This document shows, in pieces, positions 123-17,675 of a DNA stretch of 26,103 nt. Position 1 is the first letter of the stretch, and each line of letters starts with the position of its first letter. The stretch is from assembly GCA_004552195.1 (NCBI GenBank), contig SFPC01000017.1:1-26103 (forward strand). The letters are read 5' to 3'. The notes under the pieces are model-generated. The model did no database searches, was not told the origin of the DNA, and worked only from the letters and a program-made list of their open reading frames with translations. Position numbers and translations under genes: made by a program. The stretch is from Bacteroidales bacterium. GTDB lineage: Bacteria; Bacteroidota; Bacteroidia; Bacteroidales; Bacteroidaceae.

Positions 123-3100
123 TCAAGGCACGAGCACCTTCCGGCCACCCACGATGTAAAGGCCACGGCTCAGGCGACCTGCGGCACGGTTGACGCGTCG
201 GCCATCGATGGTGTAAACCACGGGGTTCTCCTTGTCGGCAACGGCAGTCTGGTCCACGCCGGTCACTTCGCCGTTGAGGTCGATGCGGAAGCCGCGTGCC
301 TGCGAAAGTGAAACGGTGGGGCAAGCCAGGTAAGCCTTGCCGGCCTTCGTCACGAAGGGAGCACCATCGGCTGCGCCGTAGAAGAAGCCCAGCACCTTCT
401 CGCCGTTCTCATAGGAGTAGGTCAGCTTGTAGTAGCGGCTGTGTGCCGGCGAAGCTATCAAACCGTCCTCCATCTGTCCGTAGAGGTACTGCGAACCGGA
501 GAAAACATCGGTGGAGCCGGAGTAAGCAAACTCGTAGTTGCCCTTATCGCCCTTGATGAGCAATGCCGTACCGGCGGGCACTGTCGTTCCGGAGGTATAG
601 GTCCATGCAGGAACCAGTGTACCTACCGTTTCGCCGTCTTCGATGGTGACATCCTTTACCGTGGCTCCCGTTACGCCTTGCGGCATCACGATGGCACGGT
701 CAGAGTAGAACGTGCCGTAGCCTTCGGCGGTGAGGATTTCCATCACACCCTTTTCGGGCTTCGTGCCGGACTGGGTAAAGTCAATCACGATGACATCGTT
801 CACAGCAGTCTGCAGGCGTACCACATCGGTCGAGAGGATTGCCACGCCCACAACTTCGCCGTTCTTGGTGAAGCGGGCCTGAGCGATGTCCTTGCCCTTG
901 ACCATCAGCGGCTGGCCTTTGTGCGACACGATGGTGACGGTGGTGGCGGCATTGTTCTCCCAGTTGATGCTGACGGTGAAGTTGCCCACAGCCTTCAAGC
1001 CCTGCATCGTACCATTGCTCCAAGCCGTAGGCAAGGCGGGCAGGATTTCGATAGTGTCGCTCTGGCTCTGCATGATCATCTCGGCCATACCGGCGCAAGC
1101 ACCGAAGTTACCGTCAATCTGGAAGGGAGCGTGCGAGTCGAACAGGTTGTAGAACACACCGGCACCGCCGTTGGCGTGGCGCAGCGCATTATTCAGGATG
1201 GTGCGGCTGTGGTCGCCGTCCTTGGCGCGTGCCCAGAGATTGATCTTCCAACCCATGGACCAACCGGTAGCACCGTCACCGCGCAGGCGCAGCGAGTTGA
1301 CAGCAGCCGTGTACAGGTCGGTGCCCGGAGTTACCTGGCTGAACGGATAGAGGCACATGAGGTGGCTCATGTGGCGGTGGCCGTCAGCACCGGCATCATA
1401 GGGCGAGTATTTCCATTCGCGGAGGATGGTAGTGTTTTGTGCCACGCCGTTGCGCGTTTGCACGGTTTCGTTCGTGCCCCACGTACCGTCGTACACTTCC
1501 GTGGCAAGTCCCTTGTCAAGTTTGTTGAACTTGTTCTTCAGGTCGGCATAGTCATCATCGGTAATGCCGGCTTCGGCCTGACCCAGCACGCGGATGGCTT
1601 CCAGGGTGTTGCTGAAGAGGTCGTAAACGAGCTGCTGGGCATGAGCCACACCATTCTCGCTGCCGGGTCCGTGTTCGGGCGAATACTCGTTGGGGCAGAC
1701 GTAGGTGCCGTCGGTGTCGAGCACGAGGCGGTCAAGCCAGAACTGCGTGGCGGAGAGCATGGCGGGGAAGGCGCGCTTCAGGTAGTCCACATCCAGCGTA
1801 TAGCGGTAGTGCTGCCACAGGTGGGTGCAGTACCAAGCGTTGGAGATGACATAGTTGTGCATAAAGCTGCCGCAACCGCCGAAGATATTGTTCTCCGTGT
1901 AGCACGTCCAGCCGCGTTGCTGACTGGCAGCGGTGGCATAAGCCTTCCACTGCGGACTGTTGGCCATGTTGATGATGTAGTTCAGGAAGGGCAGATGCAT
2001 CTCGCTGAGGTTGGTCTGCTCGGCGGGCCAGTAGTTCATCTGCACGTTGATGTTGGAGTGGATGTCGGAGTTCCAGGCGGGGTTATCCATGTTGCTCCAG
2101 ATACCCTGCAGGTTGTTCGGGAGGTCCACACCGCGCGAAGAGCTGATTTCGAGGTAGCGGCCGTAAGCGAAGTAGAGCTGTTCGAGCATCAGGGCGTTGG
2201 CTCCGTTGCCGCTGTTGTAGGTGTCGATAAGCTCGTTCGTAGGCACGGTGTTGGTAGTGCCGTTGAGGTCGAGGCTCATGCGGTTCCAGTAGTTCTGGAA
2301 GTCGTTGAGGTGGCTGCTGTACAGGTCATTGTAGCTCTTTGCGGCAGCCGTATTCACGCGGTTGCGGAGGTTGGTGGTGAGCTTATCCGTGCCGCTGGTA
2401 TAGGTCGTGGAGTAAGGATCGAAGTCCGTAGCACCGGCAATGACCACCATCACGTTGCGCGTGCCGCTCACGGTAACGCCCTCTTCGGTCGTGGTGACAG
2501 TTCCTTCGTTGTCGAGGTTGACCACCTTGAAGCGGAGGGCATACTTGATGGTCTGGGTTTCACCGTTGAACGTGTTGCCCGAGAAGAAGCCCGAAGCGTC
2601 GTTGTAGAAAGTCGTGCGTCCAAGCACATTGCCGCTCTGCAGCGTGAAGCGGAGGTTGAGCGGGGCTGTACCCGTGGAGGCGTACTGAGCCACCACCACA
2701 TTGTCGGGATAGGAAGCGAAGTACTGGCGTTCGTAGCTCGTTGCGCTCTTCGCGCTCTTGAACTGCACGAAACCGGTGGCATTGGCCAGGTTCAGGCCGC
2801 GCACATAGTCCGTTGCGCCTTCGTCCGGGCGGAGCGTGAGGTCGTCGCTGAGGTTCTCAACGAACAAGGAGCCGAAGTTTTCGTACTGTCCGTAGTTGGC
2901 ACTCACGTCGGAGGAGCGTCCGCTCCAGAGGGTCTTCTCGTTGATTTGGATTTCGTCGCGCATGACGCCGCCGAAGAGGCTGGCGCCGAGCTGTCCGTTA
3001 CCGATGGGCAACGACCATTCCATCCAGTTGCTGTAGCCCTGACCGCCGGAATAGAGGGGTGCGGTGGTGGCAGGCTCGTTGTACCAGAGGGTGAGTTTGT

Positions 3101-5531
3101 TTTCGGGGGTGAAGGAGGCGATGGAGGCTACCGTGTAGTCGGCAAAGGAGATGCCGCTCACGGGCAGGAACTTCATCGGGTTGCCGCCGTCGCCGGCCAT
3201 ATAAACGGAGATGGGGTTTCCTGCGGTAGCGCCGCTGTACATATTGAGGTGGGGGTTGTTGGTGTCGGTCACGACTGTGGGCTTGATTTCCCAGGCCTGA
3301 GCATAGCTGCCTTTGGATACGACGAGGCTGAACTTGTAGGCATCGGTATTGCCGTCGGAAGCGGCTGTCTTGAGGCGGCCATTCGTACCCGTACCGTCGA
3401 AGTAGGCGAACTCACCCTTCTTGTTGACGAGCTTGAAGGAGTTTTTGTTGCCGATGAAGCGCCACATCATTTCTTCCTTGTACTGGGTGCTGGCCGTTAC
3501 GGTCACTTCGCCGCCCACCGTGGTGGGAGCGATCCAGTTGAGGGAGTTTTTGCAGAACTGGATGTAGTACCACTCATCGCCTTCGGCAGGGGTTGCGTCT
3601 GCGTAGAAGGCCGGCTCAACGGGAGCGGGGGGAAGTACGACCCGGAAGGGGTTATTGGAGTCGCCAATGTTCCAAACGCCGAGGGGTTTTCCGGCCCCCG
3701 TGCCGCCCCATTGGTTCATGGCCTGCGAGGCACCGCTGTTGACCAACTCAAAATAGCCGGGATGGGCTGAGCTTTGGCGGAGTTCGAAGGTCACGGCACC
3801 GGATTCGCTGTCCGTGGTCTTATATCTGCTGTCTGAATAGCTGAGGTATCGTCCGGCCTTGCTGATGGCTTTGAGCGAACGGATGTCTGTGCCGATGAAG
3901 GCCCAAAGCTGTGCGTTGGAGTTGGCCATCGTGGCCGTCTGGGCGTTGTTGCCGGCCTGCTTGTCCTCAACGACGGCACCGCCCGTCTTGAACTGGATGT
4001 AGTAGTAGAGCGACTCGTCGGTGAGGTCAGAAGCCGAGGCGTAGAGCGTGGGCTCTGGGGCAAACATGCTTTCTGCGGCAAACAACTGGAGACGGTTGCC
4101 GTTGTCGTTATTGTTCCAAATACCCACACCTGCAGGGTTGTTGATGGAACGGTCGTTCATACCGTACTTGCTGTTATCGCCCACGCGGACGATTTCCACG
4201 TAGTCGCCACAGGGGTCGAAGTAGAAAGTTTCGGCCGAGGCAGCCTCCGTGCCAAGCTGGAAGCGGGCAGTGGTCGTATTCTCTGCGTTCATCGCGTAGA
4301 CGTACTTTCCGGCCTTGCTGACCATGATGAAGTTGTCCTTCGTGCCGATGAACTTCCACTTGAACTGGTCTTCGTTGGTTGCGGATGAAACCACTTCGAG
4401 CTTCGTGTCGGTGGTAGCGGCGCGGAAGTAGTGTGCGCGTTCTTGCATCTTGACAAAGTACCAATACTCGTTGGTTTCGTCGGAGAACTTGGGGAGTTTG
4501 GCGAGATAAGCGTTGTAGGCCTCATCGAGCGATGTGGCATCGAAGGCGGCCATCTTGTTGCCGTTGTCGTGGGCGTTCCACACGCCGACTTCCGCGTTAT
4601 CTCGCTTGTTGAAGCCCAGGCGTGCGTTGTCGTTCTTGCGGTAGATTTCAAAGTCCGAGGTGGTTGCGCCCAGGCCAAAGCGGAAGACGATGGCATCGGC
4701 CTGGGTGGCTGCGGCGCTGCCCATGTAGTAGCGGCCGTTGGTCTGGTCACCGGCGGTTCCGATGTTATCCTTGTGGGAAAAGCTGGTGATGTAGCGGCCC
4801 TGGCGGCTGCGGATGACGAAGTCGCCCTCGTCATTCACGGCGATAAACTGCCATTGGCGGCTCTTGTCGTTGTACGGTTCGCTGGAATCAAGGCCTACTT
4901 TCGCGCTCGCACCATTGTCTTTGAGGTAGTGCGTGGTGCCGTTGGTCAGGGCGAGGTAGTAGTAGATGGGTTCTTCCTCGTCGGAAAGCGTGGGGAGCTT
5001 CGACCGGTAGGTGGCGTAGTCGGCGACAACCGTGGCCACGGGCACGAAAATGAATTTGTTGAGGTCTTTGTCCTTGGCGCGCTCCGTGAAGGGCTGGCCG
5101 TAGGCAGCACTTCCCGAAATAGTCAGGCAGGTTCCGTTGGCCACGTCGCCAACCTCTGTACGGAAGGCTTCCCAGAAATTGTCATACTGGTGCATGCCGT
5201 AGGTCTGCGTTCCAGTGGTCGAGGCCACGTAGCGTGACGTGCCGATGTTGTAGACGAGCGTGCGGCCCGCCTTGCTCACGAGCTTGAAGCTCGTAGTGCT
5301 TTCACCTACGACCTTCCACTGCTGGCCATCGGCGAGGGCGACATCGTAGCCCTTGAGCTGGACGTTCTCATTGGCACCCACATCGGTGAGGTAGAAGTCG
5401 AAATGCGACTTAAACCGGATGTAGTACCACGTAGCCTCGCCATCTTCTGTAGAGAAGGTAGGAGTCGCCGGTTCTGCGCCCGCAGTGATGAACGCTACGA
5501 GCATCAGCCATAAACTGAGGAGTTTTCTCAT
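123..5531 (-). CDS. secreted GH95 alpha-L-fucosidase with five N-terminal repeat modules and a T9SS-type tail
   Basis: This is a predicted 1802-residue exo-enzyme removing terminal alpha-L-fucose, probably 1,2-linked, from host or plant glycans by the inverting GH95 mechanism. The start at 5531 is chosen because it opens directly onto a signal peptide (MRKLLSLWLMLVAFITAGA); the frame stays open 16 codons further upstream, but that stretch is not signal-like. Five related modules with W/Y-YYI/L-x-F signatures start near residues 34, 189, 354, 507 and 651; they resemble ricin-type beta-trefoil or carbohydrate-binding folds. The GH95 N-domain begins near 810 and the catalytic domain near 1100. 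By comparison with the family, N1160 and N1162 (HSNINVQMNYW), E1286 (EYSPEHGPG, general acid) and D1473 (IDGNFGACAG) match the known active-site residues. A Bacteroidetes beta-rich domain (about 1594-1760) precedes the tail TIDGRRV...RGLYIVGGRKV, typical of type IX secretion. The gene has its own likely promoter and follows a repeat-rich gap. Family assignment is secure; linkage specificity is inferred. Confidence 0.93.
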   Translation of the reverse strand: MRKLLSLWLMLVAFITAGAEPATPTFSTEDGEATWYYIRFKSHFDFYLTDVGANENVQLKGYDVALADGQQWKVVGESTTSFKLVSKAGRTLVYNIGTSRYVASTTGTQTYGMHQYDNFWEAFRTEVGDVANGTCLTISGSAAYGQPFTERAKDKDLNKFIFVPVATVVADYATYRSKLPTLSDEEEPIYYYLALTNGTTHYLKDNGASAKVGLDSSEPYNDKSRQWQFIAVNDEGDFVIRSRQGRYITSFSHKDNIGTAGDQTNGRYYMGSAAATQADAIVFRFGLGATTSDFEIYRKNDNARLGFNKRDNAEVGVWNAHDNGNKMAAFDATSLDEAYNAYLAKLPKFSDETNEYWYFVKMQERAHYFRAATTDTKLEVVSSATNEDQFKWKFIGTKDNFIMVSKAGKYVYAMNAENTTTARFQLGTEAASAETFYFDPCGDYVEIVRVGDNSKYGMNDRSINNPAGVGIWNNNDNGNRLQLFAAESMFAPEPTLYASASDLTDESLYYYIQFKTGGAVVEDKQAGNNAQTATMANSNAQLWAFIGTDIRSLKAISKAGRYLSYSDSRYKTTDSESGAVTFELRQSSAHPGYFELVNSGASQAMNQWGGTGAGKPLGVWNIGDSNNPFRVVLPPAPVEPAFYADATPAEGDEWYYIQFCKNSLNWIAPTTVGGEVTVTASTQYKEEMMWRFIGNKNSFKLVNKKGEFAYFDGTGTNGRLKTAASDGNTDAYKFSLVVSKGSYAQAWEIKPTVVTDTNNPHLNMYSGATAGNPISVYMAGDGGNPMKFLPVSGISFADYTVASIASFTPENKLTLWYNEPATTAPLYSGGQGYSNWMEWSLPIGNGQLGASLFGGVMRDEIQINEKTLWSGRSSDVSANYGQYENFGSLFVENLSDDLTLRPDEGATDYVRGLNLANATGFVQFKSAKSATSYERQYFASYPDNVVVAQYASTGTAPLNLRFTLQSGNVLGRTTFYNDASGFFSGNTFNGETQTIKYALRFKVVNLDNEGTVTTTEEGVTVSGTRNVMVVIAGATDFDPYSTTYTSGTDKLTTNLRNRVNTAAAKSYNDLYSSHLNDFQNYWNRMSLDLNGTTNTVPTNELIDTYNSGNGANALMLEQLYFAYGRYLEISSSRGVDLPNNLQGIWSNMDNPAWNSDIHSNINVQMNYWPAEQTNLSEMHLPFLNYIINMANSPQWKAYATAASQQRGWTCYTENNIFGGCGSFMHNYVISNAWYCTHLWQHYRYTLDVDYLKRAFPAMLSATQFWLDRLVLDTDGTYVCPNEYSPEHGPGSENGVAHAQQLVYDLFSNTLEAIRVLGQAEAGITDDDYADLKNKFNKLDKGLATEVYDGTWGTNETVQTRNGVAQNTTILREWKYSPYDAGADGHRHMSHLMCLYPFSQVTPGTDLYTAAVNSLRLRGDGATGWSMGWKINLWARAKDGDHSRTILNNALRHANGGAGVFYNLFDSHAPFQIDGNFGACAGMAEMIMQSQSDTIEILPALPTAWSNGTMQGLKAVGNFTVSINWENNAATTVTIVSHKGQPLMVKGKDIAQARFTKNGEVVGVAILSTDVVRLQTAVNDVIVIDFTQSGTKPEKGVMEILTAEGYGTFYSDRAIVMPQGVTGATVKDVTIEDGETVGTLVPAWTYTSGTTVPAGTALLIKGDKGNYEFAYSGSTDVFSGSQYLYGQMEDGLIASPAHSRYYKLTYSYENGEKVLGFFYGAADGAPFVTKAGKAYLACPTVSLSQARGFRIDLNGEVTGVDQTAVADKENPVVYTIDGRRVNRAAGRLSRGLYIVGGRKVLVP

Positions 5532-5648
5532 AGATAAATAGATATGTGATACAATAAAGATAATTCTGTGTATGCACAACGAGCCTTAACGTAAGAACAA
5601 GGTCAACAAAGGTTTTGTCAAAACAGGTAAGTTGTACGATGAACGCCG

Positions 5649-5743: not shown

Positions 5744-5867
5744 GATAGGTTGCTATAGGAAGCGATAGGTTTTTATAGGGAGCTATAGATTTCTATAGTT
5801 TTTATAGATTGCTATAGGTTGCTATAGGTTTCTATAGATTTCTATAGATTTCTATAGCTCCCTATCC
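5744..5867. repeat. CTATAG array 1: 13 units at 10-bp period
   Basis: Thirteen hexamers of CTATAG or close variants (gatag, ttatag, a last ctatcc) have end positions at 5748, 5758, 5768, 5778, 5788, 5798, 5807, 5817, 5827, 5837, 5847, 5857 and 5867. Every step is 10 bp except one of 9. The spacers are mostly GATT, GGTT or GTTT-like. The core is a palindrome, so the array has no strand. It lies upstream of the GH95 promoter. The spacing is too short and the spacers too similar for a CRISPR array. Confidence 0.9.
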
Positions 5868-5869
5868 CT

Positions 5870-5940
5870 CACGCGCCCTTCACGCGCCCTTCACGCGCCC
5901 TTCACGCTCCCTTCACGCTCCCTTCACGCTCCCTTCACGC
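5870..5940. repeat. 11-bp GC-rich tandem repeat
   Basis: Three copies of CACGCGCCCTT (5870-5902) are followed by three copies of CACGCTCCCTT (5903-5935) and a partial seventh copy. The 11-bp unit is not a multiple of three and no reading frame is involved. The two sub-families, differing by one base, suggest growth by slippage or unequal exchange. The array directly abuts the CTATAG array, with a change of both period and composition at the junction. Confidence 0.9.
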
Positions 5941-5946
5941 GCGCGG

Positions 5947-6203
5947 ATATACGCAATTTTTCCCCGGAAAAAAGCGTTCACTCCTTCACAGACTGTCTGT
6001 TCTGCGCTGATTTTCATCGGGAAATCGTGTGAAGGCTTTGGTTTTCAACCCTTCACACCTACCCCCGCAATACCCCCACGCAGCTGGCCTGCTGTGAACA
6101 CTTGAAAATCAAAGCCTTCACACCGAAAATCGCTGGTTTTCAGCAAGAAAAGAGCTATCGGTGAAAGGGTGAATGCTTTTTCTCAGTAAAAAATTACGTA
6201 TAT
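5947..6203. repeat. about 257-bp palindromic, MITE-like element
   Basis: The two ends are imperfect inverted repeats: the left end starts atatacgcaattttt and the right end finishes aaaaattacgtatat, with similarity over about 43 bp reaching a TTCAC-rich motif. Inside, 6027-6048 and 6102-6123 pair over 22 bp with one mismatch. The two arms, 5947-6048 and 6102-6203, are both 102 bp long and flank a 53-bp centre, so the whole unit is nearly symmetrical. No open frame fills it. It could be a non-autonomous transposable element, a REP-like repeat or a structured RNA. I could not identify a clear target-site duplication. Confidence 0.6.
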
Positions 6204-6282
6204 AATAGGTTAGAAGATTATGGGGTTACGGTCGCTTCGCTCCCTAAGCTCATCACCCAACAACACCGCTACCTTCACGCGC

Positions 6283-6341
6283 ACAAGTCCCGGACTTGTT
6301 TTTACAACTCAAGGAGTTGGAAAAAATAGTCCGGGACTTGT
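6283..6341. repeat. long inverted repeat, possible terminator after the DPP4-family gene
   Basis: The 28-nt arms (6283-6310 and 6314-6341) match at 25 of 28 positions around a loop of only 3 nt. The outermost 14 bp (acaagtcccggact / agtccgggacttgt) are perfect. Each outer segment is itself nearly self-complementary (acaagtcc.ggacttgt), so two small hairpins could form in place of one long one. It begins 38 nt after the DPP4-family stop. No T-run follows it on the minus strand; the T/A runs lie inside the stem. A terminator role is possible, and a dispersed REP-like repeat is an alternative. Confidence 0.7.
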
Positions 6342-6379
6342 GGAGCACTATCGGCGGCCCTGTGAAGGGATGCGTCGAG

Positions 6380-8548
6380 TTATTTCAGATAATCGTCAAA
6401 GTAGCGGGTGATGCGTTCGTGGAGGTGGACCATGTCGTGGCCCATCATGTTGTGGCCGTCGCCGGGGTAGACAAAGTAGTCGGGCTGGGTGCCGGCATCC
6501 TCGCAGGCGCGGAGGAAGGAGAGGCTGTGCTGGAGCACGCAGGTGGGGTCGTTGTAGCCCACGATGATCTGCAGCCGGCCCTTGAGGTTCTTGGCTTTGG
6601 GAAGCAGGCTGCTCGAAGCGTAACCCTCGGGATTCTCCTGCGGCGTGTCCATGTAACGCTCGCCGTACATCACTTCGTAATACTTCCAGTCGATGACAGG
6701 ACCGCCGGCCACGCCTACCTTGAACACATCGGGATAGCTGCACATGAGGTTGGTGGTCATGAATCCGCCGAACGACCATCCGTGAACGCCGAGGCGGTCG
6801 GCATCGACATAGGGCAGGCTCCGGAGGAATTTCACCCCTTCCATCTGGTCGGCCATCTCGTTGTCGCCGAGGTGGCGGTGGGTCACACTCTCAAACTCGA
6901 AACCACGGTTCTCGGAACCCCGGTTGTCGACCACGAAGACCACGTAGCCGCGCTGCGCCATGTAGGTTTCCCAGGGCCGCGACAGGTAATTCCAGGACTC
7001 GTCGACGTTGTGGGCATGGGGACCGCCATAGACGTAGACCACGGCGGGATATTTCTTGGACGGGTCGAAACCGGCGGGTTTCACCAGTCGGTAGTAGAGG
7101 TCGGTCTTGCCGTCGGCAGCCTTGATGGTGCCGCTCTCCACGGGGGGCACGCCGTTGCCCTGATACGGACTGTCGGCGCGGTGAAGCTCGGTCTGTGCGG
7201 GCTTGGCGGTGGCCACGAGGTCGATGCGGCGGAAGGCATCGGGAGCGGACCAGCGGTCTACGAGGAACGCTCCGCTCTCGCTCAGACGGGCATAGTGTAC
7301 GCCCCGTCCGTTGTCGAGCAGGGTGCGACGGCCTGTCTGCACGTTGACGCTGTAATGGTTGTAGCGGATGGGCGAGGCCTCGTTGCTCTGGATGATAATG
7401 CTCTTGGTGCGCTGGTTGTAGCCCAACACGTCGAGCACCTCGAATGGGCCCTGCGTGAGCTGCTTGAGCTCGCGGCCTGTGGTGTCGAAGAGGTAGAGGT
7501 GGTTGTAGCCGTCGCGGCGGGTCTGGTAGATAAACTTCGTGTCGTCCCAGGGGAGGAAGCTGATGGGGTGCATCGGTTCCACGTAGCGGGCGTTGGTCTC
7601 GGTGTAGAGCACGCCCTTGCGCTGGCCGGTGGCGGCATCATAGGCCACGAGCTCGGCCTTGTCCTGCGTGCGGGGCAGCTCAATCATATAGACAGTGCTT
7701 TCGTCGGGACTCCAGGCTATGTTGGTGAAATAGCGGTCGGTGGGGTCGCCGGCCTGGAGGTAGACGGTACGCTCCGTGGCGGGGTTGTAGATGCCCACGG
7801 TCACCTTGTGGCTCGTCATGCCGGCCATGGGGTATTTCTCAGGGGCGAGCTGGGCCACGCGGTGGTCAATGTCGACGAGGGGATAGTCCGTCACCATGGT
7901 CTGGTCCATGCGGTAGAAGGCGAGCAGGCTGCCCTTGGGACTCCAGAAGAGACCCTGGCTGATGCCGAACTCGTCGCGGTGGACACTCATGCCGTACTGG
8001 AGTTCACGGCTGCCGTCTGTGCTGACCTGGAGGGTCTTGCCGTCGGCACGGGTCACGAAGAGGTTCCAGTCCTTGACGTAAGCAAGATGCCGGCTCTTGG
8101 TGTTGAAGGCCGAAACCTGGCTGTCAAAGTTGTCGGGCATGGTCCAGACCACTTGCTTCGTGGTCCAGTCATAGATGAAACGGCATTTGTGCGTGTTGAG
8201 CATGCACTGCGTGGCCTTGCCGTTGGGGAAGGAGGCATAGAGCAGGGAGTAACATTTGCCCCACTTGGCGGTGTCCACCGCCGCGTTGACCTCGTCGAGG
8301 GTGAAAAGGGTTTGGGGCGTTTTCACCTTTTTCCCTTTTTCGTCCATCAGGGTCTTGACCTCTTCCACGTCTATTTCGAGAAGGCGGTCGCCCCAGAAAT
8401 TGGTTTGAAGGCTCTTGGGTTGCAGTTGCCAGTAGTTCGTGCCGCCCCACATGAGGTCTTCGAGCGAATACTGCTTGGTTTGCTGTGCCATGGCGGGTAT
8501 GACGAGCAACAGCGCGAGCACCGTGCTCCAAAGGTATTTGGTTTTCAT
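6380..8548 (-). CDS. exported DPP4-family (S9B) prolyl serine peptidase
   Basis: This 722-residue protein has the usual length of bacterial dipeptidyl peptidase IV. Such enzymes act in the periplasm or on the surface, releasing short N-terminal peptides ending in proline or alanine. The start at 8548 is chosen because it gives the signal peptide MKTKYLWSTVLALLLVIPAMA; an earlier in-frame extension runs into rlmL and has no family resemblance. An eight-bladed propeller is expected over about residues 30-490, followed by an alpha/beta-hydrolase domain. The catalytic triad reads S592 (GWSFGG), D667 (GYNDPT) and H699 (GDGHNM), with spacings of 75 and 32 against 78 and 32 in human DPP4. The N-terminus-binding Glu-Glu of DPP4 appears as D192-E193 (VHRDEFG), so release of dipeptides versus tripeptides is uncertain. 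The gene begins 49 bp after rlmL and is probably co-transcribed with it. Confidence 0.9.
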   Translation of the reverse strand: MKTKYLWSTVLALLLVIPAMAQQTKQYSLEDLMWGGTNYWQLQPKSLQTNFWGDRLLEIDVEEVKTLMDEKGKKVKTPQTLFTLDEVNAAVDTAKWGKCYSLLYASFPNGKATQCMLNTHKCRFIYDWTTKQVVWTMPDNFDSQVSAFNTKSRHLAYVKDWNLFVTRADGKTLQVSTDGSRELQYGMSVHRDEFGISQGLFWSPKGSLLAFYRMDQTMVTDYPLVDIDHRVAQLAPEKYPMAGMTSHKVTVGIYNPATERTVYLQAGDPTDRYFTNIAWSPDESTVYMIELPRTQDKAELVAYDAATGQRKGVLYTETNARYVEPMHPISFLPWDDTKFIYQTRRDGYNHLYLFDTTGRELKQLTQGPFEVLDVLGYNQRTKSIIIQSNEASPIRYNHYSVNVQTGRRTLLDNGRGVHYARLSESGAFLVDRWSAPDAFRRIDLVATAKPAQTELHRADSPYQGNGVPPVESGTIKAADGKTDLYYRLVKPAGFDPSKKYPAVVYVYGGPHAHNVDESWNYLSRPWETYMAQRGYVVFVVDNRGSENRGFEFESVTHRHLGDNEMADQMEGVKFLRSLPYVDADRLGVHGWSFGGFMTTNLMCSYPDVFKVGVAGGPVIDWKYYEVMYGERYMDTPQENPEGYASSSLLPKAKNLKGRLQIIVGYNDPTCVLQHSLSFLRACEDAGTQPDYFVYPGDGHNMMGHDMVHLHERITRYFDDYLK

Positions 8549-8597
8549 TGAGGTAAAGTTGGGTTGTTTCAGCATAATGGTGATGATGGCCTCCGGC

Positions 8598-10097
8598 TTA
8601 ATCCTGGTCGCGGAAGGGCGGCCGGCGCGGTCCGCCTTTCCGTCCGTCGGGCTTGGAACCGAAGCCGCCGCGTCGTGAAGCGGGCTTGCCGGTTCCTCCC
8701 TTCCGGAAGTCGCCTTTCCGGAAGTCGCCCTTCTTGGCTGCAGGACGCGGCGGCCGGGGTGCGAAACGGCTATCCTGAAATTCGCGGTGCTTGCGGCGCA
8801 GCAGGAGGTATTCGGGATCGAGGTCTTCCTCATCGTGTCGCTCGCGGGGCGTTTCGGAAAGACGTTGTTTGAACTCTTCACGGTTGGCCTTGAAGCGGGT
8901 GCGGTCGCCCATGAGGCGGCGCTCTTCATCGGTCTTTACCTTGCCGCCCTCGGCACGGAAGTCACCCAAACGGCCCTCGAAGAGCTGGTACTTGCGGAAG
9001 TCGCAGTCGAGCTTGCCATTGAAGATCTGCACCTTGAAACTGGGGCGCAGGCCGATGTTTTCGAAGAGTTCCTGCTTGGAGGAGATGACCCACGCCTCGT
9101 TGCCCGAGAACTCGTGCTTGAGGGTCTTGCCTATGGTCTGGTAAAGATTGAGCAGGTCGGGGGGCGTGAGGCGTTCGCCGTAGGGAGGGTTGGTCACCAT
9201 GAGGGCTTTCTGCTCCGGACGGGTGAACTTGCGGAAATCCTGCTGCTGCACGCTGACGATGTCGTCGACTCCGGCACTGCGCACGTTTTTCTGTGCGGCT
9301 TCGACGGCGGGCACGTTGAGGTCGTAGCCGTAGATGCGATGGTGGAACTCGCGCTCCTGGGAGTCGTCCTCATAGATGGCTTGCAGGAGGTCGGGGTCGA
9401 AGTCTTTCCATTTCTCAAAACCGAACTCTTTGCGGAACACGCCGGGATAGATGTTGCGGGCCATGAGGGCGGCCTCGACCAGGAAGGTACCGGAACCGCA
9501 GAAGGGGTCGATGAAGTCGCAGTCGGCCTGCCAACCGGTGAGCTTGATGAGTCCGGCGGCCAGCACCTCGTTGATGGGTGCCTCAACGGTGGCTGTGCGG
9601 TAACCGCGCAGGTGGAGGCTCTCGCCGGAGCTGTCAAGCGAGAGGGTGCAGTCTTCTTCGGCAATGTGGATGTTGAGCTTGACGTCGGGGTTGGTGATGC
9701 GGATGTTGGGACGCTCGCCTGTGGTGTCGCGGAAGTAGTCGACGATGGCATCCTTCACCTTATAAGCCACGAACTTGGAGTGGCGGAACTCGGGAGAGAA
9801 GATGACGGTGTCGACGGCAAAGGTAGTGTCGACGCTGAGGTACTGGCTCCAGTCAATCTTGCGCACCGCATCGTACACCTCGTCGGCATCCTTGGCGCGG
9901 AAGTGCTTGATGGGTTTGAGGATGCGCACGGCGGTACGCAGACAGAAGTTGGCACGGTACATCATGGCCTTGTCACCGGTGAAGGATACCATGCGGCGAC
10001 CTATCTGCACGTTGTCGGCTCCCAGTTCGGTGATTTCCTGTGCCAACACCTCTTCTAAGCCCTGAAAGGTTTTGGCAATAAGTTCAAATTCTTGCAT
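8598..10097 (-). CDS. rlmL: THUMP-domain rRNA guanine-N2 methyltransferase, RlmL-like
   Basis: This 499-residue cytoplasmic enzyme should methylate the exocyclic N2 of a guanine in 23S rRNA (G2445 in E. coli). The start at 10097 gives MQEFELIAKTFQGLEEVLAQEI, the family's usual beginning; the frame extends 28 codons upstream but only into the leader. A THUMP RNA-binding domain (about 45-155) precedes a Rossmann methyltransferase with the SAM-binding motif DPFCGSGTF (D197) and the catalytic motif NPPY (N303-Y306), the form used for amino-group methylation. E. coli RlmL is fused to RlmK; here only the RlmL half is present. The last 50 residues are a basic, glycine- and arginine-rich tail with a KGDFR duplication, probably disordered and RNA-binding. 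A Bacteroidetes-type promoter lies about 156 bp upstream. The exact target base is inferred from the family. Confidence 0.88.
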   Translation of the reverse strand: MQEFELIAKTFQGLEEVLAQEITELGADNVQIGRRMVSFTGDKAMMYRANFCLRTAVRILKPIKHFRAKDADEVYDAVRKIDWSQYLSVDTTFAVDTVIFSPEFRHSKFVAYKVKDAIVDYFRDTTGERPNIRITNPDVKLNIHIAEEDCTLSLDSSGESLHLRGYRTATVEAPINEVLAAGLIKLTGWQADCDFIDPFCGSGTFLVEAALMARNIYPGVFRKEFGFEKWKDFDPDLLQAIYEDDSQEREFHHRIYGYDLNVPAVEAAQKNVRSAGVDDIVSVQQQDFRKFTRPEQKALMVTNPPYGERLTPPDLLNLYQTIGKTLKHEFSGNEAWVISSKQELFENIGLRPSFKVQIFNGKLDCDFRKYQLFEGRLGDFRAEGGKVKTDEERRLMGDRTRFKANREEFKQRLSETPRERHDEEDLDPEYLLLRRKHREFQDSRFAPRPPRPAAKKGDFRKGDFRKGGTGKPASRRGGFGSKPDGRKGGPRRPPFRDQD

Positions 10098-10252
10098 TTC
10101 CTGTAATGAGAAAGGAGGGTGAAAAAGTCCGTAAAGCACACGCTGCGGACCACTGTCGCACCTGAAAGAATCAACGCACAAGAGCGCGCGCCGAAAGGCT
10201 GTCGGTAACAGAATTTAAAGCCTACGGGAGGAGCGGTGCGGACATTGCGAAG

Positions 10253-10260
10253 CAAAAGTA
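10253..10260 (-). promoter_or_regulatory. Bacteroidetes -7 element for rlmL and the DPP4-family gene
   Basis: The minus strand reads TACTTTTG, an exact TAnnTTTG match and identical to the element before the GH95 gene. It lies in the 242-bp gap between the sulfatase stop and the rlmL start. Transcription would start near 10245, leaving a leader of about 150 nt. The rest of the gap holds a T-run just after the sulfatase stop (10316-10322 on the minus strand) without a convincing stem before it. Confidence 0.6.
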
Positions 10261-10339
10261 GAGATTATTTTTAAAATGGAGGGGTTTCAGGGGGATAAGG
10301 TCTTAACAAGGGTGAAAAAAATTAGGAACACGGATAACC

Positions 10340-11842
10340 TCACTCAGGCAACGTGACGGGGAATAGGGGACTGTCGGTGTGCTCGCGGCGGATGATTTCC
10401 TTCATCCGGCTCACTACCTCGGGATGGCGGGCGGAGAGGTCGTGGTCCTCATGGAGGTCGGTGGCGAGGTCGTAGAGGAGGCATTTGCCCTGCTTGACCA
10501 CGAGTTTCCAATTGCCCATGCGCACGGCCATCATGTCGGTTTCGGAGAACTCCCAGTAGAGGTATTCGTGCTCGGGCTGGCCGGAACGCCCCAAGAGGGT
10601 GGGCAGGAAGGAAAGACCGTCGAAGGGGTCGGCGACAAGGGCGGGGTTGCGGTAACGCTCTTCGTAACGGGAGATGCCGGCGAGGTCGCAGAAGGTGGGC
10701 ATGAGGTCGTAGAAGGCGAGCTGGTGGGGGTTGACGGTGCCGGCAGGGACGTGGCCGGGCCAACGGACGATGAAGGGGATGCGGATGCCGCCTTCATAGG
10801 TGCTGCGCTTGATGCCGCGCAACAGGCCGTCGCGGTTGAAATAGGAGGGGTCGGCACCGCCTTCCTCATGGGGGCCGTTGTCGGAGGTGAAGATGACGAC
10901 GGTGGTGGAGTCGAGCCCTTTTTCGCGCAGCTTGGCCATGATTTCGCCCACCTGGGCATCGAGGCGCGAGATCATGGCGGCAAATTCGGCATGGCCGCAG
11001 TCGGTGGGGTTGTAACGGGAACCTGCGTTGCCGGCATAGGTGCGCTCCTGGCAGAAACGGCCTTTGTAAGCCAAGAGGAGGGAGTCCTCGGGCTGCGCCA
11101 GCTCGGCATGTGGCAGGGTGTAGGTGAAGATGCCGAGGAAGGGACGGTCGGAGGTCTGGCGGTCGAGCCACTCCAACGCGCGGCGGTGGATGAGGTCGGC
11201 GGAGTACTGCGCTCGCTGTTTGTAGTCGGGGCCGAACATGGGATATTGGATGTTCTGTTCCAGCACCTCGCGCTGCACTCCGGCATCGCCCGCCGCACGG
11301 CTGTAGCTGTTGAGGAAATTGGGGAAATAGAGGTGGGCCTGGAACTGGCAGATATAGCCGTAGAACTCATCAATGCCGCGACGGTCGGGCGTGGAGGGGG
11401 AGCCTTCGTAGCCACCGGCCCATTTGCCAAACATACCGGTGGTGTAGCCGTTGTCGCGGAAGATTTCGGGCAGGATGACGTGGGCGGTGTCGTAAGGTTC
11501 CTGGCCCACGACGGCATAGTCGGTGTTGTCGCCATAGCGAACGCTGCCGCTCCAATATTCCTTGTTGGCCCTGACGTGGGTGTGACCGGTGTGCTGGCCT
11601 GTCATGAAGGTGGCACGCGACGGTGCCGACACGGGGCTGCCGGCATACGCCTGGGTGAAGCGCATCCCTTCGGAGGCGAGGCGGTCGATGTGGGGCGTGG
11701 CGATAAGCTGCTGGCCGTAGCAAGCGAGGTCGCCATAACCCATGTCGTCGCACATGATGTAAAGGATATTGGGCCGCGTTTGCGCCCCGGCGGCCAAAGC
11801 CGCGAAACCGGCACAGCCGCTAAAAAAAATTCGGTTGAGCAT
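10340..11842 (-). CDS. exported type I sulfatase, Ser-type
   Basis: This 500-residue protein is a formylglycine-dependent sulfatase (SulfAtlas S1 type) that should hydrolyse sulfate esters from glycans in the periplasm or outside the cell. A short signal-like N-terminus (about residues 1-20, ending AAGAQ) precedes the fold. Metal-binding D32 and D33 lie in CDDMGYGD. The nucleophile motif is S72-A-P-S-R76 inside GSPVSAPSRATFMTG, so the residue converted to formylglycine is serine; an anaerobic radical-SAM maturase (anSME) would be needed and is not encoded here. D321-N322 (TSDNGP) complete the calcium site. The gene starts 71 bp after the four-helix gene, with a CTATAG array filling that gap. 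Next to fucosidase and hexosaminidase genes, a sulfated host glycan is a reasonable substrate, but the sequence alone does not tell me the sugar or position. Confidence 0.92.
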   Translation of the reverse strand: MLNRIFFSGCAGFAALAAGAQTRPNILYIMCDDMGYGDLACYGQQLIATPHIDRLASEGMRFTQAYAGSPVSAPSRATFMTGQHTGHTHVRANKEYWSGSVRYGDNTDYAVVGQEPYDTAHVILPEIFRDNGYTTGMFGKWAGGYEGSPSTPDRRGIDEFYGYICQFQAHLYFPNFLNSYSRAAGDAGVQREVLEQNIQYPMFGPDYKQRAQYSADLIHRRALEWLDRQTSDRPFLGIFTYTLPHAELAQPEDSLLLAYKGRFCQERTYAGNAGSRYNPTDCGHAEFAAMISRLDAQVGEIMAKLREKGLDSTTVVIFTSDNGPHEEGGADPSYFNRDGLLRGIKRSTYEGGIRIPFIVRWPGHVPAGTVNPHQLAFYDLMPTFCDLAGISRYEERYRNPALVADPFDGLSFLPTLLGRSGQPEHEYLYWEFSETDMMAVRMGNWKLVVKQGKCLLYDLATDLHEDHDLSARHPEVVSRMKEIIRREHTDSPLFPVTLPE

Positions 11843-11864
11843 AGTGGTAAAGGATAAAGTAAAA

Positions 11865-11939
11865 GATAGGAAGCTATAGATAGCTATAGATAACTATAGA
11901 AATCTATAGAAATCTATAGCTCTCTATTGCAGCTATCAA
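11865..11939. repeat. CTATAG array 2: 6 clear and 2 decayed units at 10-bp period
   Basis: A gatag unit (ending 11869) is followed by perfect CTATAG hexamers at 11874-11879, 11884-11889, 11894-11899, 11904-11909 and 11914-11919, all in exact 10-bp steps. Two decayed units (ctattg at 11924, ctatca at 11934) keep the same phase inside the end of the four-helix coding region. That gene's TAG stop codon (11914-11916) is part of a CTATAG unit. The array lies 22 bp upstream of the sulfatase start. Confidence 0.88.
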
Positions 11940-12717
11940 GGTCCGCCTCGGGCGAGCCTGCGCCTTTGCGCCGCTCCAGCTGCGCTTGAAGTTCCTCAAT
12001 CTGCGCCTTCTGCCCGTTGTAGGCTTTCAGGGCGCGGGCACGGAGGTCATTGTAGCGGGCATCGGCGGCGGCAAGCGACTGCCGCAACGCCTGGCATTCC
12101 TGCCGCAGGGCTTCGTTCTCCAGCTGCAGCTGCCGGAACTCCTCGTCTTGTTGCTGTCGGTAGCCGGTACGCATTTTGTGCATACGCTCCTTCAGGCCGC
12201 CCTCGGTGATGAAATGCTGCTCCACCGACTTCAGGTAGCGATTGAGCATCGAGTCCATTTGGTAGCAGAGCGTGAGCCCCAGGTTAGACAGCTCCTCCTC
12301 GGTACAGCGGTTGGCAAAGTCGCGATAGTCCTCCCAGGAATTGCGTTTCCGGGTGAACTCCCGCAACTTGGCATAGCGTGGATGTTGCGCGTCCCACTGC
12401 TCCATGCCGCGTGCGGTGAGGTGGTCCTTGTAGTCCTCCCGCAGTTCGCTGATACTGGAGCGCGCCACGTTCAACAGCTTGAGCTCCATCTCGGTAGAGG
12501 TCTTGCCGTTCTCCGAACCCTCCACGATGTTCTGCTTTCCGGACCGTGCCGCCTGCACCATCTGGTCCACGGTGCGGTCGCCGTGGAGCGGCAGGAAGCG
12601 GCGGCAGAACACCACGGTGAGCTGGTAAAGCGTGTCGGACTTGCGGTAAAGGTGCAAATCCTGCCAGCGGCAGCCGGTGCGCATCACGTGCAAAGACTCC
12701 ACATTCTTTTCTGTCAT
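11914..12717 (-). CDS. four-helix-bundle suffix-domain protein with C-terminal coiled coil
   Basis: This 267-residue cytoplasmic protein has no signal peptide. Residues about 25-110 (QLTVVFCRRFLPL, VDQMVQAARSGKQNIVEGSE, ELKLLNVARSSISELREDY) match the 23S rRNA intervening-sequence/four-helix-bundle family, in the form annotated as a 'four helix bundle suffix domain'. Residues about 185-255 form a charged, Leu- and Gln-rich coiled coil (LENEALRQECQALRQSL, IEELQAQLERRK). No enzyme motif is visible. The family's molecular role is not established; relatives form ring-like oligomers with basic surfaces, and nucleic-acid binding is only suspected. The gene has CTATAG arrays on both sides: one immediately upstream of its likely -7 element and one overlapping its stop. 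The last codons (LDSCNREL) are partly made of decayed array units, suggesting that the array grew into the gene or that the gene end was rewritten. It may be co-transcribed with the sulfatase. Confidence 0.8.
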   Translation of the reverse strand: MTEKNVESLHVMRTGCRWQDLHLYRKSDTLYQLTVVFCRRFLPLHGDRTVDQMVQAARSGKQNIVEGSENGKTSTEMELKLLNVARSSISELREDYKDHLTARGMEQWDAQHPRYAKLREFTRKRNSWEDYRDFANRCTEEELSNLGLTLCYQMDSMLNRYLKSVEQHFITEGGLKERMHKMRTGYRQQQDEEFRQLQLENEALRQECQALRQSLAAADARYNDLRARALKAYNGQKAQIEELQAQLERRKGAGSPEADLDSCNREL

Positions 12718-12749
12718 AGGCTGTCCTTCAGGATTTAAGGGTTTGGCAG

Positions 12750-12757
12750 CAAATTTA
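12750..12757 (-). promoter_or_regulatory. Bacteroidetes -7 element for the four-helix gene
   Basis: The minus strand reads TAAATTTG, an exact TAnnTTTG match, about 33 bp upstream of the start codon at 12717. The -33 position falls at the proximal end of CTATAG array 3 (nearest unit 12769-12774), so the array sits where an activator or alternative upstream element would act. Confidence 0.5.
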
Positions 12758-12768
12758 GCGCAATCAGG

Positions 12769-12883
12769 CTATAGCTTTTATAGAAGGGGATAGATTTTTA
12801 TAGGCTTTTATAGAATTCTATAGATTTCTATAGTTTTCTATAGCTTTCTATAGCAATCTATAGTTATCTATAGTTTTCTATAG
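12769..12883. repeat. CTATAG array 3: 12 units at 10-bp period
   Basis: Hexamers end at 12774, 12783, 12793, 12803, 12813, 12823, 12833, 12843, 12853, 12863, 12873 and 12883. All steps are 10 bp except the second unit, at 9. Eight are perfect CTATAG; the others are ttatag or gatag. Spacers are mainly ATTT, GTTTT-like or CTTT. The array lies between a terminator (12895-12941) and the four-helix promoter, so it is probably not transcribed, which favours a DNA-level role. The 12718-12984 gap holds no gene. Confidence 0.9.
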
Positions 12884-13177: not shown

Positions 13178-16100
13178 TTAACGGATATACTTTTTACCAT
13201 TCACGATATATACGCCTTGGGGCAGGTTGTCAAGGCTGCGGGCGGCCTTGCGCACGAGGCGGCCGTTGAGGTCGTAAACATCGGCGGGTTCCTGCTGTTC
13301 CATGGGCTGCAACGGACGGATGCCGGTTACCTCGCCCTCATCGCCTACAAGGCGCAGGCTGATAACCTTGGGAGCTGCTGCCACCTGGGCCGAACGGTCG
13401 AGCACCTGCAAGTACCAGCGGAAAGCACCGAGCGACGCGCTGGAGTTCTGAGCCTGCTGCAAGGAGCCGCCTGAGAGGGCGTAGTAGCCTTCTGAGTAGA
13501 CGGTGGAGCCGGGAATCAGCGTGTAGGTGCCGGTGAAGACGTAGCGGTTGTTCCACGAAGTCACGTCGAACTCGTTCTGAAGGGTGGGCTGCATCACGAC
13601 ATTCTGGAGGCTGATGTTCTTCGTTCCGGTCTGCTTGGCGCGGATAAGGTACGGCGTGTTGGCCTCGATGCTTCCGCTCTTGACGAACATGATTTCCAGC
13701 TCGGTGCGGTCGGCCACGCCGTCTTCGTTGTCATCGTACTGGTGTACGTCGTTCAGGCGGGCCACGTCGAAGTCGTCCTTCCAGTCTTCGTAGCTCATGG
13801 CGAAAGGCATATACCAAGCCTGCCAGTTGGTGGTGTTGAAGGTACGGATGTAGGTGAGTTGGTCGGCGGTGAAGGCGCGCACTACCTCGAACTGCTCGGA
13901 AGCATCGGAGAGCTGCAAGTTGCTCACGTTCATATAGACTACAGTGTACACGCCCTCGGCGGTCTTCGTCATGGACTGCACGGCATAGCCCGCGATTTCG
14001 GGTGTCAGGCTGAGGGTCACCTCGGTCAGGTCGGCATCGACGTAGCGGGTGAAGCCGCCCAGCGAAGTTCCGTCGGTTTTCTCGCAGTTGAAGGTAACGG
14101 GCTTGACGCGCGTGACGTTCCACGTGGATCCCTGGATGCGGGGTGCATCGTAGGTGGCCCCGCTGAGGGTGCTGCCGCTGCTCACGGTGCCGGCCTCTAC
14201 CAAGGGGAAGAAGCTGCGGTCGTTGATTTGCAAGCGATATTCGCCGCAGCTTTCGTCATAGGCCAAGGAAACCGTGGCCTTGGTGCTGGCATCGACTGAT
14301 ACGGGGTAGCCCACGCGATTGCTGTAAGAAGTAGCTGCACCGCTGATGTACTGACCCGTGGTGGCGTTCCGCAAGTTGAGCTGTTGCACGCCGTAGAACT
14401 CGGAAACCTCGGAGGAAGTAACGGTCCAGGCGTTGGCGGCAAACGGGTCGGTGCTGTGGAGCAAACTTGTGTTGTCGGCAGCTGCGGCAAGCGCCGTGGC
14501 ATCAAAGCCCTCTACGGCATTGCTGAACATATAGGTCTCGCCGTAGGTGAGCGGCGTGAAGTTGATGTCGTAGTAGTTTTCGGCAGGGACGAATTCCCAG
14601 TAGCCGGCTCTGGTATTACTTGCATCGCTCCAAAGATTGATGGAATAATTCTGTCCACTACCTGCTGCATTCATATACCACGTAACGCTGCTACCATCTA
14701 CAGACTGTGGAGTGTGAATAGTATAGTAGTAGTTACCATTTACAGAACCCAAACCACCCAAGATGAAGTCGTAATACTTATTCTCGGTGTCGTAGTCCCA
14801 ACGTCCTTCTGCTGATGCAGAAGCATCACCCGATGTTTTGTGAACAGGTGTGCTCTTGACCGAACCATCAGGGAATGCTTTGCACACCAATGCAAATCTG
14901 CCACTTCCTTCCGGGTCTGCCTCCACACTCCACCATTGGTAATCGTAATTATCGGCTCCTTCTGTTGCCACATCATTGGGCCACAAACGATTGACCTTAG
15001 CAGATGCATTGTTTGCCAATGGAGAGCCCTCATGGATAAGCTCTATACACTTGCCTATTCGTTTGCTATCATCTCCATTGTAATTGCTCACAATGCGATA
15101 ATAATACTTCTTCTCCGCCGTATTGGCTTTGGGATAGATGACAGTAGGCGGTTCGGGCTCGGCAACAGGCTCAGGAGCGAATTGCCACTTGCCACTACCT
15201 CCATCCGCAGGATTGCCATAGACATTGACAGAATACTTTTGGCCACCGGCTGCACTGTTCATGTACAAACCCGTTAATTGGTCTGAAGTGATGGAGTAGA
15301 AATAGTTACTTCCCACCTTGCCAAAGAAGTTACCCTTCCCAAGCTGGAAGTTATAATGCTTGGCACTGCTGTCATAGGTCCAACGTCCACCATTATTTTT
15401 TGCTGTAGGAGAAGCATTCACTGACCCTTCGGGCTGCGCCTTGCAGACCAAAGCATATTTGCCTGTACCTGCGGGATCAGCTTCAATACACCACCACTGA
15501 TAATCATAGTTTGTGTCCCCTTTTGTAGCCTGGACATTGGTCCACAAGCGTCCTGCCTGACATTGTTGAGCACTATAGGAATCAATCAACGGAGACCCTT
15601 CTGCCACCAGTTCGATACAGCGGCCCACGCGCTCGGCATCCGTCGCACCAGAAATCAGGCGATAGTAGTGCTTCTCGCTGGCCGTGCTGACATCGGGCAG
15701 AACGATCGGCTTCTCCCAGCCCACCATCTGATAGTCGCACCACTTGTAGTTGTTGTAGTTAAGCAGGAGCGTGTCGGCGGTGATGCGCTGCTGGAAGTCA
15801 GTAAAGCTGCGGTTGGCCTGCGGTGTCCATCCTGCTTCGGCAATGGCAGTAAGGCGCGGCAGCGTGAGCCACTCCAAATAATCGCGGTCGCTGACAACCT
15901 CGGTCCAGAAGGTAGCCTGAATACCGGCATCAACATTCTCTGGGATGGGCTTTTCGTACACCTTCATCACGTCCTCGTTGCCATAGCCCGCAGCAGGGGG
16001 ATCAAGCGAGGGATCACCTTGGTATTTGTTGATATAGAAAGGATATTGCGGCGTGTAGATGCGGCTCAAGCCCAACTCGGCAGCTTTGGTAACACCATCT

Positions 16101-17365: not shown

Positions 17366-17534
17366 TGTGATTAGATTTATAGATGATATAATGATGTTTG
17401 TACTATGGTAAGAGCAGGTGAAAAAAGATGAAGGGGAAAGGCGATGAAGCCAAGCGGTAACAGACTGATGCTGCGCTGACTGCGACCTTTCCACGCCACC
17501 CCTTGCACAAGGAGGGACGTTTGCCGAGTGCAAA

Positions 17535-17542
17535 GAAAAGTA
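17535..17542 (-). promoter_or_regulatory. possible -7 element for the GH20 gene
   Basis: The minus strand reads TACTTTTC, matching TAnnTTTG at all but the last base, followed by TTTGCA. It lies about 170 bp upstream of the GH20 start and downstream of the rpoC terminator, a sensible position. The one-base mismatch keeps this tentative. Confidence 0.35.
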
Positions 17543-17675
17543 AAATTGATGGAAAGTGCACTGATTTAGACCGAAAAAAAGCATTTTTCACCTTTTTGGG
17601 GCTCCACAGGGCGCGCAGAGGCTGAGGAGACCGCCCCACAACGGAGGATGGACGCTTGCCCATGAACAAACGCAA

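Follow-up and report, generated by a model that had tools for sequence, protein, structure and literature searches.

Short-Core Periodic Arrays Flank Many Genes for TIGR04258 Helix-Bundle Proteins in Bacteroidota and May Be Their Recognition Sites

What keeps a palindromic six-base core in phase at separate places of one genome, while the bases between its copies drift? The question is raised by a 26,103-nucleotide stretch of a Bacteroidales bacterium (assembly GCA_004552195.1, contig SFPC01000017.1, positions 1 to 26,103; hereafter the window), in which CTATAG recurs at a period of about 10 bp in three arrays. Two of the arrays were found to enclose a gene encoding a helix-bundle protein with a suffix domain, a member of TIGR04258, and arrays with a period of 9 or 10 bp often flank genes of this family elsewhere. 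In our judgment, the chances are about even that the arrays are recognition sites of the protein encoded beside them, the two forming a repeat-and-protein system that works in the manner of a REPtron.

Results

Two CTATAG arrays in the window enclose a helix-bundle gene

The three arrays reported in the original prediction are real. CTATAG occurs 22 times in the window against 2.54 expected, a count reached by none of 100 dinucleotide shuffles, and 21 of the 22 copies fall within arrays 1 to 3 (Table 1). Tandem Repeats Finder likewise called period-10 arrays at 5745-5857, 11866-11919, and 12790-12883. Array 2 had been described as six clear and two decayed units; the array stands, with five exact cores and three degenerate units, namely AGATAG at the left and CTATTG and CTATCA at the right. 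A single 9-bp step had been noted in each of two arrays, which holds for arrays 1 and 3, and the last step of array 2 is also 9 bp. As had been observed, core and phase persist in all three arrays while the spacers vary. Imperfect outer units, in the window and in other arrays, tend to retain ATAG at the left and CTAT at the right.

It had been missed that arrays 2 and 3 enclose a single gene, the helix-bundle gene. Array 2 overlaps the 3′ end of this gene, whose TAG stop codon falls inside an exact core, and precedes the sulfatase start listed at 11842 (minus strand) by about 22 bp. Array 3 occupies the upstream side of the helix-bundle gene, separating it from the next large gene (13178-17584, minus strand), which we take to be of the GH20 type. 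Array 1 sits between a GH95 gene (123-5579, minus strand) and a DPP-IV-type peptidase gene (6380-8551, minus strand), with no helix-bundle gene adjoining.

The encoded protein scored 58.1 bits against TIGR04258 (four helix bundle suffix domain; curated cut-off, 40) and 28.1 bits against TIGR02436 (four helix bundle; cut-off, 24), making it a TIGR04258 member in which the suffix follows the four-helix-bundle domain. The NCBIfam family name says nothing on arrays, and to our knowledge no function of TIGR04258 proteins is known. Against PF05635, the 23S rRNA intervening-sequence protein family, the window protein scored 27.6, under the gathering score of 33.8, and 37 of 41 family representatives matched PF05635 at an E-value of 0.001. 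A profile search found the solved structure 2gsc (E 5e-4). The predicted structure is all-helical with a long C-terminal helix (mean predicted local distance difference test score, pLDDT, 92.9; predicted template modeling score, pTM, 0.74), and in a Foldseek search with this model the S23-type structures 2gsc and 2rld ranked first and seventh, with weak scores (E 0.03-1.2, TMt 0.55-0.72). Sequence together with fold kinship to solved members places the protein in the S23/IVP superfamily (PF05635). A topoisomerase-type C4 DNA-binding zinc ribbon is fused to the protein in 5 of the 41 representatives, which points to DNA. In passages of one report (PMC4990558), the S23 family is described as without known function and the Xanthomonas S23 structure as a toroidal homopentamer.

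Periodic arrays recur beside TIGR04258 genes across Bacteroidota

The arrays were expected to recur in related genomes, and they were found there on searching relatives, other cores included. Scanning species-genome contigs for four CTATAG at exact 10-bp steps yielded 25 stretches, of which 18 came from 12 Bacteroidota genomes and 7 from 7 others, as judged by record titles. TIGR04258 was present in 10 of the 12 Bacteroidota genomes picked in this way and in none of the 7 others. The flanks of many TIGR04258 genes carried period-9 or period-10 arrays, often with other cores; CTATAG, CCTAGG, GTCCAC, GTCCGA, and ATGGGC were seen, among others.

A draw of 395 Bacteroidota genomes was then used, chosen irrespective of arrays and with the centre genome (G002) kept apart. 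TIGR04258 was found in 50 of the 395, at 110 listed places, and in 105 of 301 genomes of one family. Ninety loci, covering 91 of the 110 places, were scored; left out were 3 places in G002, a genome picked for its arrays, and 16 that were not fetched. At least four periodic copies of one 6-mer on a flank were detected at 20 of the 90 loci versus 7 of 577 control tiles, and at least three copies at 31 of 90 versus 8 of 577; the tiles were taken from all 112 loci, and two flanks per locus were compared with one tile per control. Autocorrelation of 5-mers, for which no motif need be chosen, gave values at lag 9 of 12.6 upstream and 11.3 downstream versus 2.4 in controls (×0.001; 83 upstream and 83 downstream flanks, 419 control tiles), and the peaks recurred at lags 18 and 27, with a weak one at lag 10. 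In the draw of 301 genomes of one family, at least four copies were found at 22 of the best 30 loci by E-value, which are not a random 30 and have no separate control tiles.

As a suffix-less control, 30 TIGR02436 loci were taken, 15 located by profile and 14 by central frame, with L235, a suffix gene, set aside. Eight of the 14 central-frame loci were usable, the central frame not being the gene in the 6 that were dropped. At least four copies were found at none of the 15 profile loci and at 1 of the 8 central-frame loci (L227, score 5), or 1 of 23 in total. At about 1840-1930 of L227, runs of a 10-bp unit, TGATGCTCTT, lie beside the suffix-less TIGR02436 gene.

Among 57 array-positive loci, the array was downstream of the gene in 46, upstream in 41, and on both sides in 30. 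The gene ended in TAG at 22 of 27 loci with a TAG/CTA-containing core, at 10 of 30 with other cores, and at 15 of 68 without arrays. One Prevotella nigrescens plasmid record has the gene, followed on the 3′ side by a CTAG-type array; a phage search gave no match.

Some arrays enter reading frames. At L119, L122, L136, L141, and L043, the helix-bundle gene itself contains in-frame arrays of its own core, placed ahead of the suffix or at the C terminus. At L361 (2081-5375) and L362 (2772-6013), in-frame repeats encode tripeptides such as GLM/GLI, the helix-bundle frame continues into what we read as a lipoprotein-like sequence, and the repeats stand at the place expected of the lipoprotein signal sequence, the end of which is a Cys-Ser box. 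At L336 (6100-6350), a CCTAGG array continues into arrays of other short units, as if arrays attracted further repeat growth.

The core follows the protein

We compared cores and proteins pairwise at 59 array-positive loci, counting a core as shared when a stretch of at least 5 bases was common. The core was shared by none of the pairs below 40% protein identity, by 2% at 40-49, 15% at 50-59, 79% at 60-69, 88% at 70-79, 94% at 80-89, and 100% at 90 or above. Homologues from different genomes that were at least 60% identical had the core in common in 143 of 166 pairs, versus 1 of 12 pairs of paralogues in the same genome that were less than 60% identical, so genome composition is not the explanation. 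As far as sequence comparison can tell, the core is specific to the protein subfamily and tracks the protein, not the genome. Shared descent of the gene and its flanking DNA explains some of this agreement.

Dispersed arrays of the same cores occur mostly in genomes carrying the family

Array matches were counted as overlapping three-unit windows, and the counts include arrays beside the gene. Three-unit CTATAG arrays were found in all 12 Prevotella-like genomes, every one chosen for arrays, in none of 15 other TIGR04258 genomes, and in none of 20 genomes without TIGR04258. GTCCAC arrays occurred in 11 of these 47 genomes, all of them among the 15 other TIGR04258 genomes and none among the 20. 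In the loci read from the 11, a gene strongly flanked by GTCCAC was seen in 7, a weakly flanked one in 2 (G075 and G039), and none in 2 (G176 and G295), and the remaining 4 of the 15 had neither GTCCAC arrays nor a GTCCAC-flanked gene. CCTAGG arrays were present in 11 of 14 genomes with CTAG-type genes versus 0 of 28 others, 12 of the latter being family members without a TIGR04258 hit. Every CCTAGG match in G665 flanks the gene; at least 9 other genomes have some elsewhere, by the places and loci listed. Dispersed GTCCAC and CCTAGG arrays mostly accompany a gene of the cognate type.

Across the 301 family genomes, CTATAG arrays were found in 30 of 105 with TIGR04258 versus 12 of 196 without (odds ratio 6.1, Fisher p 3e-7), and in 27 of 102 versus 12 of 196 when three genomes chosen for arrays were removed (odds ratio 5.5, p 2e-6), in tests that ignore kinship. 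Dispersed arrays of the same core are mostly found in genomes carrying the family. Fourteen array-bearing genomes were without a TIGR04258 hit, namely the 12 of the family set plus G006 and G010; a family-profile search of these turned up one clear gene, interrupted and adjoining an array, in G426, and weak matches in three.

Arrays are dispersed over many loci per genome, with dozens of separate places on one contig of G192. Of 82 distinct dispersed arrays, 64 were intergenic and 18 intragenic, with 6 in divergent gaps; these placements rest on crude frame calls, which do not allow a test against background gaps.

Arrays have a preferred polarity

Thirty-five two-armed arrays had exact copies on both strands, and in 24 of them the G-rich copies came first and the C-rich copies followed, versus 1.3 expected on shuffling. 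The other 11 comprised 2 with the opposite order and 9 mixed ones, and in 8 of the latter a CTATAG or CCTAGG core had been read off-centre. Reverse-complementing a two-armed array leaves its layout unchanged, so this polarity is independent of the strand read. Among half-intact outer units, 83 of 103 in CTATAG arrays kept ATAG at the left or CTAT at the right, and 41 of 44 in CCTAGG arrays kept the equivalent halves. Polarity at the first outer unit might reflect truncation. At the second step, the rule is still favoured, by 18 to 5 for CTATAG and 12 to 0 for CCTAGG, and at the fourth step out the polarity is not favoured for CTATAG (4 to 6). Judged from their base sequences, the arrays have one preferred polarity, with half-sites that converge toward the middle.

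In the GTCCAC family, the spacer base preceding the next core was A or C in 148 of 162 cases, and 18 of 26 distinct GTCCAC arrays were one-armed by exact cores. Spacers were unpaired across 10 dyads, with 24 of 57 positions complementary versus 21.3 expected. A maintained base-paired hairpin is not supported, the spacers not pairing. The CTATAG core has a 9-bp period in many relatives. The original prediction held that a 10-bp step puts every CTATAG on one face of the helix; because this core also occurs at 9 bp and the phylum sample peaks at lag 9, same-face phasing is rejected as a general rule.

At CTAG-type loci, homology between non-sister genomes stays within the module

At CTAG-type loci of non-sister genomes, alignments longer than 300 bp covered only the module, 0.5-0.9 kb, and ended in or near the arrays; sister genomes had several kilobases in common. 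The number of units at a given site varied between relatives. Between two genes that we take to be susC- and susD-like, G711 has 8 exact CCTAGG units, G571 has two exact and several degenerate units, and G665 has none. In the relative G001 (L004), the window gene keeps its large neighbour and both arrays, array 3 being decayed.

Recent whole-array copying in G192 was not supported at the 20 sites examined. As to an empty site at the window locus, 7 relatives retain the RlmL-DPP order, and neither an array nor a helix-bundle gene was found in the stretches fetched from them, but with different outer neighbours none is a clean empty site.

Features and surroundings of the window

Table 1. Arrays and array-gene-array module in the window
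Feature	Position	Strand	Description
Array 1, solitary	5744-5867		13 units, 8 with an exact CTATAG and 5 degenerate; a single 9-bp step
Array 2	11865-11939		5 exact CTATAG cores and 3 degenerate units
Array 3	12769-12883		12 units, 8 with an exact CTATAG and 4 degenerate; a single 9-bp step
Helix-bundle gene, 267 aa	11914-12717	minus	TIGR02436 and TIGR04258; PF05635 relative; long predicted C-terminal helix
Whole array-gene-array module	11865-12883		about 1 kb; layout recurs at other loci

An 11-bp tandem repeat, TCACGCGCCCT, directly adjoins array 1 at 5869-5942 (6.7 copies, 96% matches). Unlike array 1, whose spacers drift, it has the look of ordinary slippage. Between 123 and 25937, the window clusters GH95, DPP-IV-type peptidase, RlmL-like, and sulfatase genes, together with the presumed GH20-type gene and neighbours that are presumably rpoC and rpoB. 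The GH95 protein is 1818 aa long, and its long N-terminal part has a weak ricin-type lectin match.

Discussion

Subfamily-specific cores, a preferred polarity, and a conserved step are together best explained by a protein reading the array, for which the helix-bundle protein encoded there is the obvious candidate; the bound protein proposed originally hence survives as the best explanation, with a candidate to its name. It had been pictured as a small dimer, which is conjectural; the Xanthomonas S23 structure is cited as a homopentamer (PMC4990558). The protein, probably an oligomeric ring like a solved relative, would bind the core in DNA, with successive protomers reading units 9 or 10 bp apart, and binding beside its own gene would give autoregulation. 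Its action at DNA may further seed, extend, or move arrays, which is the weakest step, and array 1 would be a dispersed site of the same system. A fuller picture, which we offer as possible but less likely than not, is that of a widespread Bacteroidota element in which a ring-forming helix-bundle protein without a catalytic domain recognises a short core particular to its subfamily, seeds and lengthens convergent arrays of 9-10 bp period with the help of host replication or repair enzymes, and moves as an array-gene-array module, diverging into many codes.

Several observations weigh against a protein that reads and spreads these arrays. By the simple detector, a strong array is absent from 70 of the 90 loci of the phylum draw, and the difference between 20 of 90 loci and the 1 of 23 suffix-less controls is alone not significant (p 0.07). 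No nuclease or recombinase domain was found in the window protein or the 41 representatives, bar one weak recombinase zinc-ribbon match. The fit of array and gene is looser for CTATAG: 6 of 10 gene-bearing array genomes have a CTATAG-flanked gene, G012 has only 2 copies, and no copy adjoins the genes found in G007, G008, or G011. G008 even has the most CTATAG matches (134, overlapping), yet no CTATAG-flanked gene was found there; a related core, ATAGGA, occurs at its locus L044. The family profile matched nothing in 10 of the 14 array-bearing genomes without a TIGR04258 hit, among them G682 with 78 pattern matches; assembly gaps are possible in these ten. CTATAG arrays also occur in the 7 genomes outside Bacteroidota, where TIGR04258 was not found, and 17 viral-contig stretches (L026-L042) carry four-unit CTATAG arrays, with no match to the window helix-bundle protein in the loci fetched. 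At the 20 sites of G192, shared two-spacer strings numbered 3 where chance predicts 3.6, and no match lying within 450 bp of an array exceeded 88 columns, which gives no sign of recent copying. The core-protein agreement and the genome-level associations may also come partly from shared descent. The lack of recent copying, the gene-less genomes, and the looser CTATAG fit urge caution as to whether the protein spreads the arrays or only uses them.

The protein might instead be a domesticated host regulator that binds the arrays as operator, insulator, or nucleoid sites, the arrays arising by slippage and being kept where useful, with no spreading at all. ParR- or omega-like proteins bind repeat arrays. 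The absence of recent copying in G192 agrees with a host regulator, as do the closeness of arrays to the gene's own ends and the array between the presumed susC- and susD-like genes, which two relatives have and a third lacks. We nevertheless consider it unlikely, if a serious contender, since module homology stops near the arrays in unrelated contexts, arrays lie at many loci per genome, and some are inside reading frames. Neutral microsatellite growth by slippage, with the gene as a passenger or favoured landing place, would account for unit numbers that differ between relatives, for arrays in genomes without a detectable gene, and for the slippage-like 11-bp repeat adjoining array 1. It is improbable given that the core is kept as spacers drift and is subfamily-specific, that polarity is preferred, and that the period in the phylum sample is sharply 9.

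Two further explanations leave DNA recognition aside. Inverted arrays could form hairpins in a transcript, like the ends of 23S rRNA intervening sequences, which RNase III would cut or the protein would bind at the RNA level. The two-armed layout would suit such an RNA element, and so would kinship with proteins encoded in 23S rRNA intervening sequences, as described in parts of PMC4990558. However, the spacers across the dyads are hardly more complementary than expected, most of the distinct GTCCAC arrays are one-armed, and no Rfam family was found in the window, so that an RNA element is quite improbable, slightly more so than slippage. Phased intrinsic curvature of the DNA, for which a protein would be unnecessary, had been raised originally and draws on the 10-bp period and A/T-rich spacers of the window. 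The period of 9 and the G+C-containing cores elsewhere make it very improbable indeed; A-tract bending does not fit GTCCAC or CCTAGG arrays, and intrinsic bending is rejected for these two families.

For the array-reading protein, the private periodic code in the flanking DNA is a direct handle on TIGR04258 function. If confirmed, the system would be REP-like but transposase-free. It would give a new origin for repeats scattered in the genomes of gut and rumen bacteria, provide naturally occurring pairs of protein and DNA specificity, and account for arrays that otherwise resemble random microsatellites.

Relation to known systems

A literature search, outside of which most subscription journals lay, found no description of these arrays, and PMC2267715, by a term search, mentions none of Bacteroides, Chlorobium, Porphyromonas, or S23. 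CRISPR arrays have long identical repeats, unique spacers, and cas genes; here the core is 6 bp and the spacers 3-4 bp, and no cas match was found among the five window proteins scanned. Iteron and centromere arrays bound by ParR, TubR, or omega also consist of short phased sites beside the gene of the binder. The module differs from them in protein fold, in its many dispersed chromosomal copies, and in its converging half-site polarity. Avd of diversity-generating retroelements has a related four-helix-bundle fold and acts with nucleic acid, whereas no reverse transcriptase was found among the five window proteins scanned, to which the search was confined.

Nearer in protein are the 23S rRNA intervening sequences, in which the gene for a four-helix-bundle protein of the same superfamily (S23/IVP, PF05635) is enclosed by inverted sequence. 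The module, in contrast, lies outside an rRNA gene, has a suffix domain, carries arrays instead of one terminal inverted repeat, and has its core in dispersed arrays as well; with no Rfam match at the gathering score in the window, rRNA included, it is not a 23S rRNA intervening sequence. In the Coxiella intervening sequence, 2-3 tandem heptamers, variable between strains, stand just upstream of the S23 frame, according to passages of PMC4990558, and these heptamers are possibly a distant parallel to the arrays.

Nearest in organization are REPtrons, or REPIN-RAYT (TnpA-REP) systems, as defined and described in the relevant parts of PMC8266576. Few gene copies beside repeats, dispersed cognate repeats, a group-specific repeat sequence, and an inverted layout are common to both. 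They differ in that no HUH/Y1 transposase match was found in the window protein or the 41 representatives, and in that there is here no GTAG-tagged hairpin, the repeats being cores of about 6 bp in periodic arrays with unpaired spacers rather than single or paired palindromes. Because protein and repeats are unrelated, the module is not a member of the REPtrons, and by analogy alone the system could be called a REPtron-like variant. It has the defining features of none of the known repeat-and-protein systems tested.

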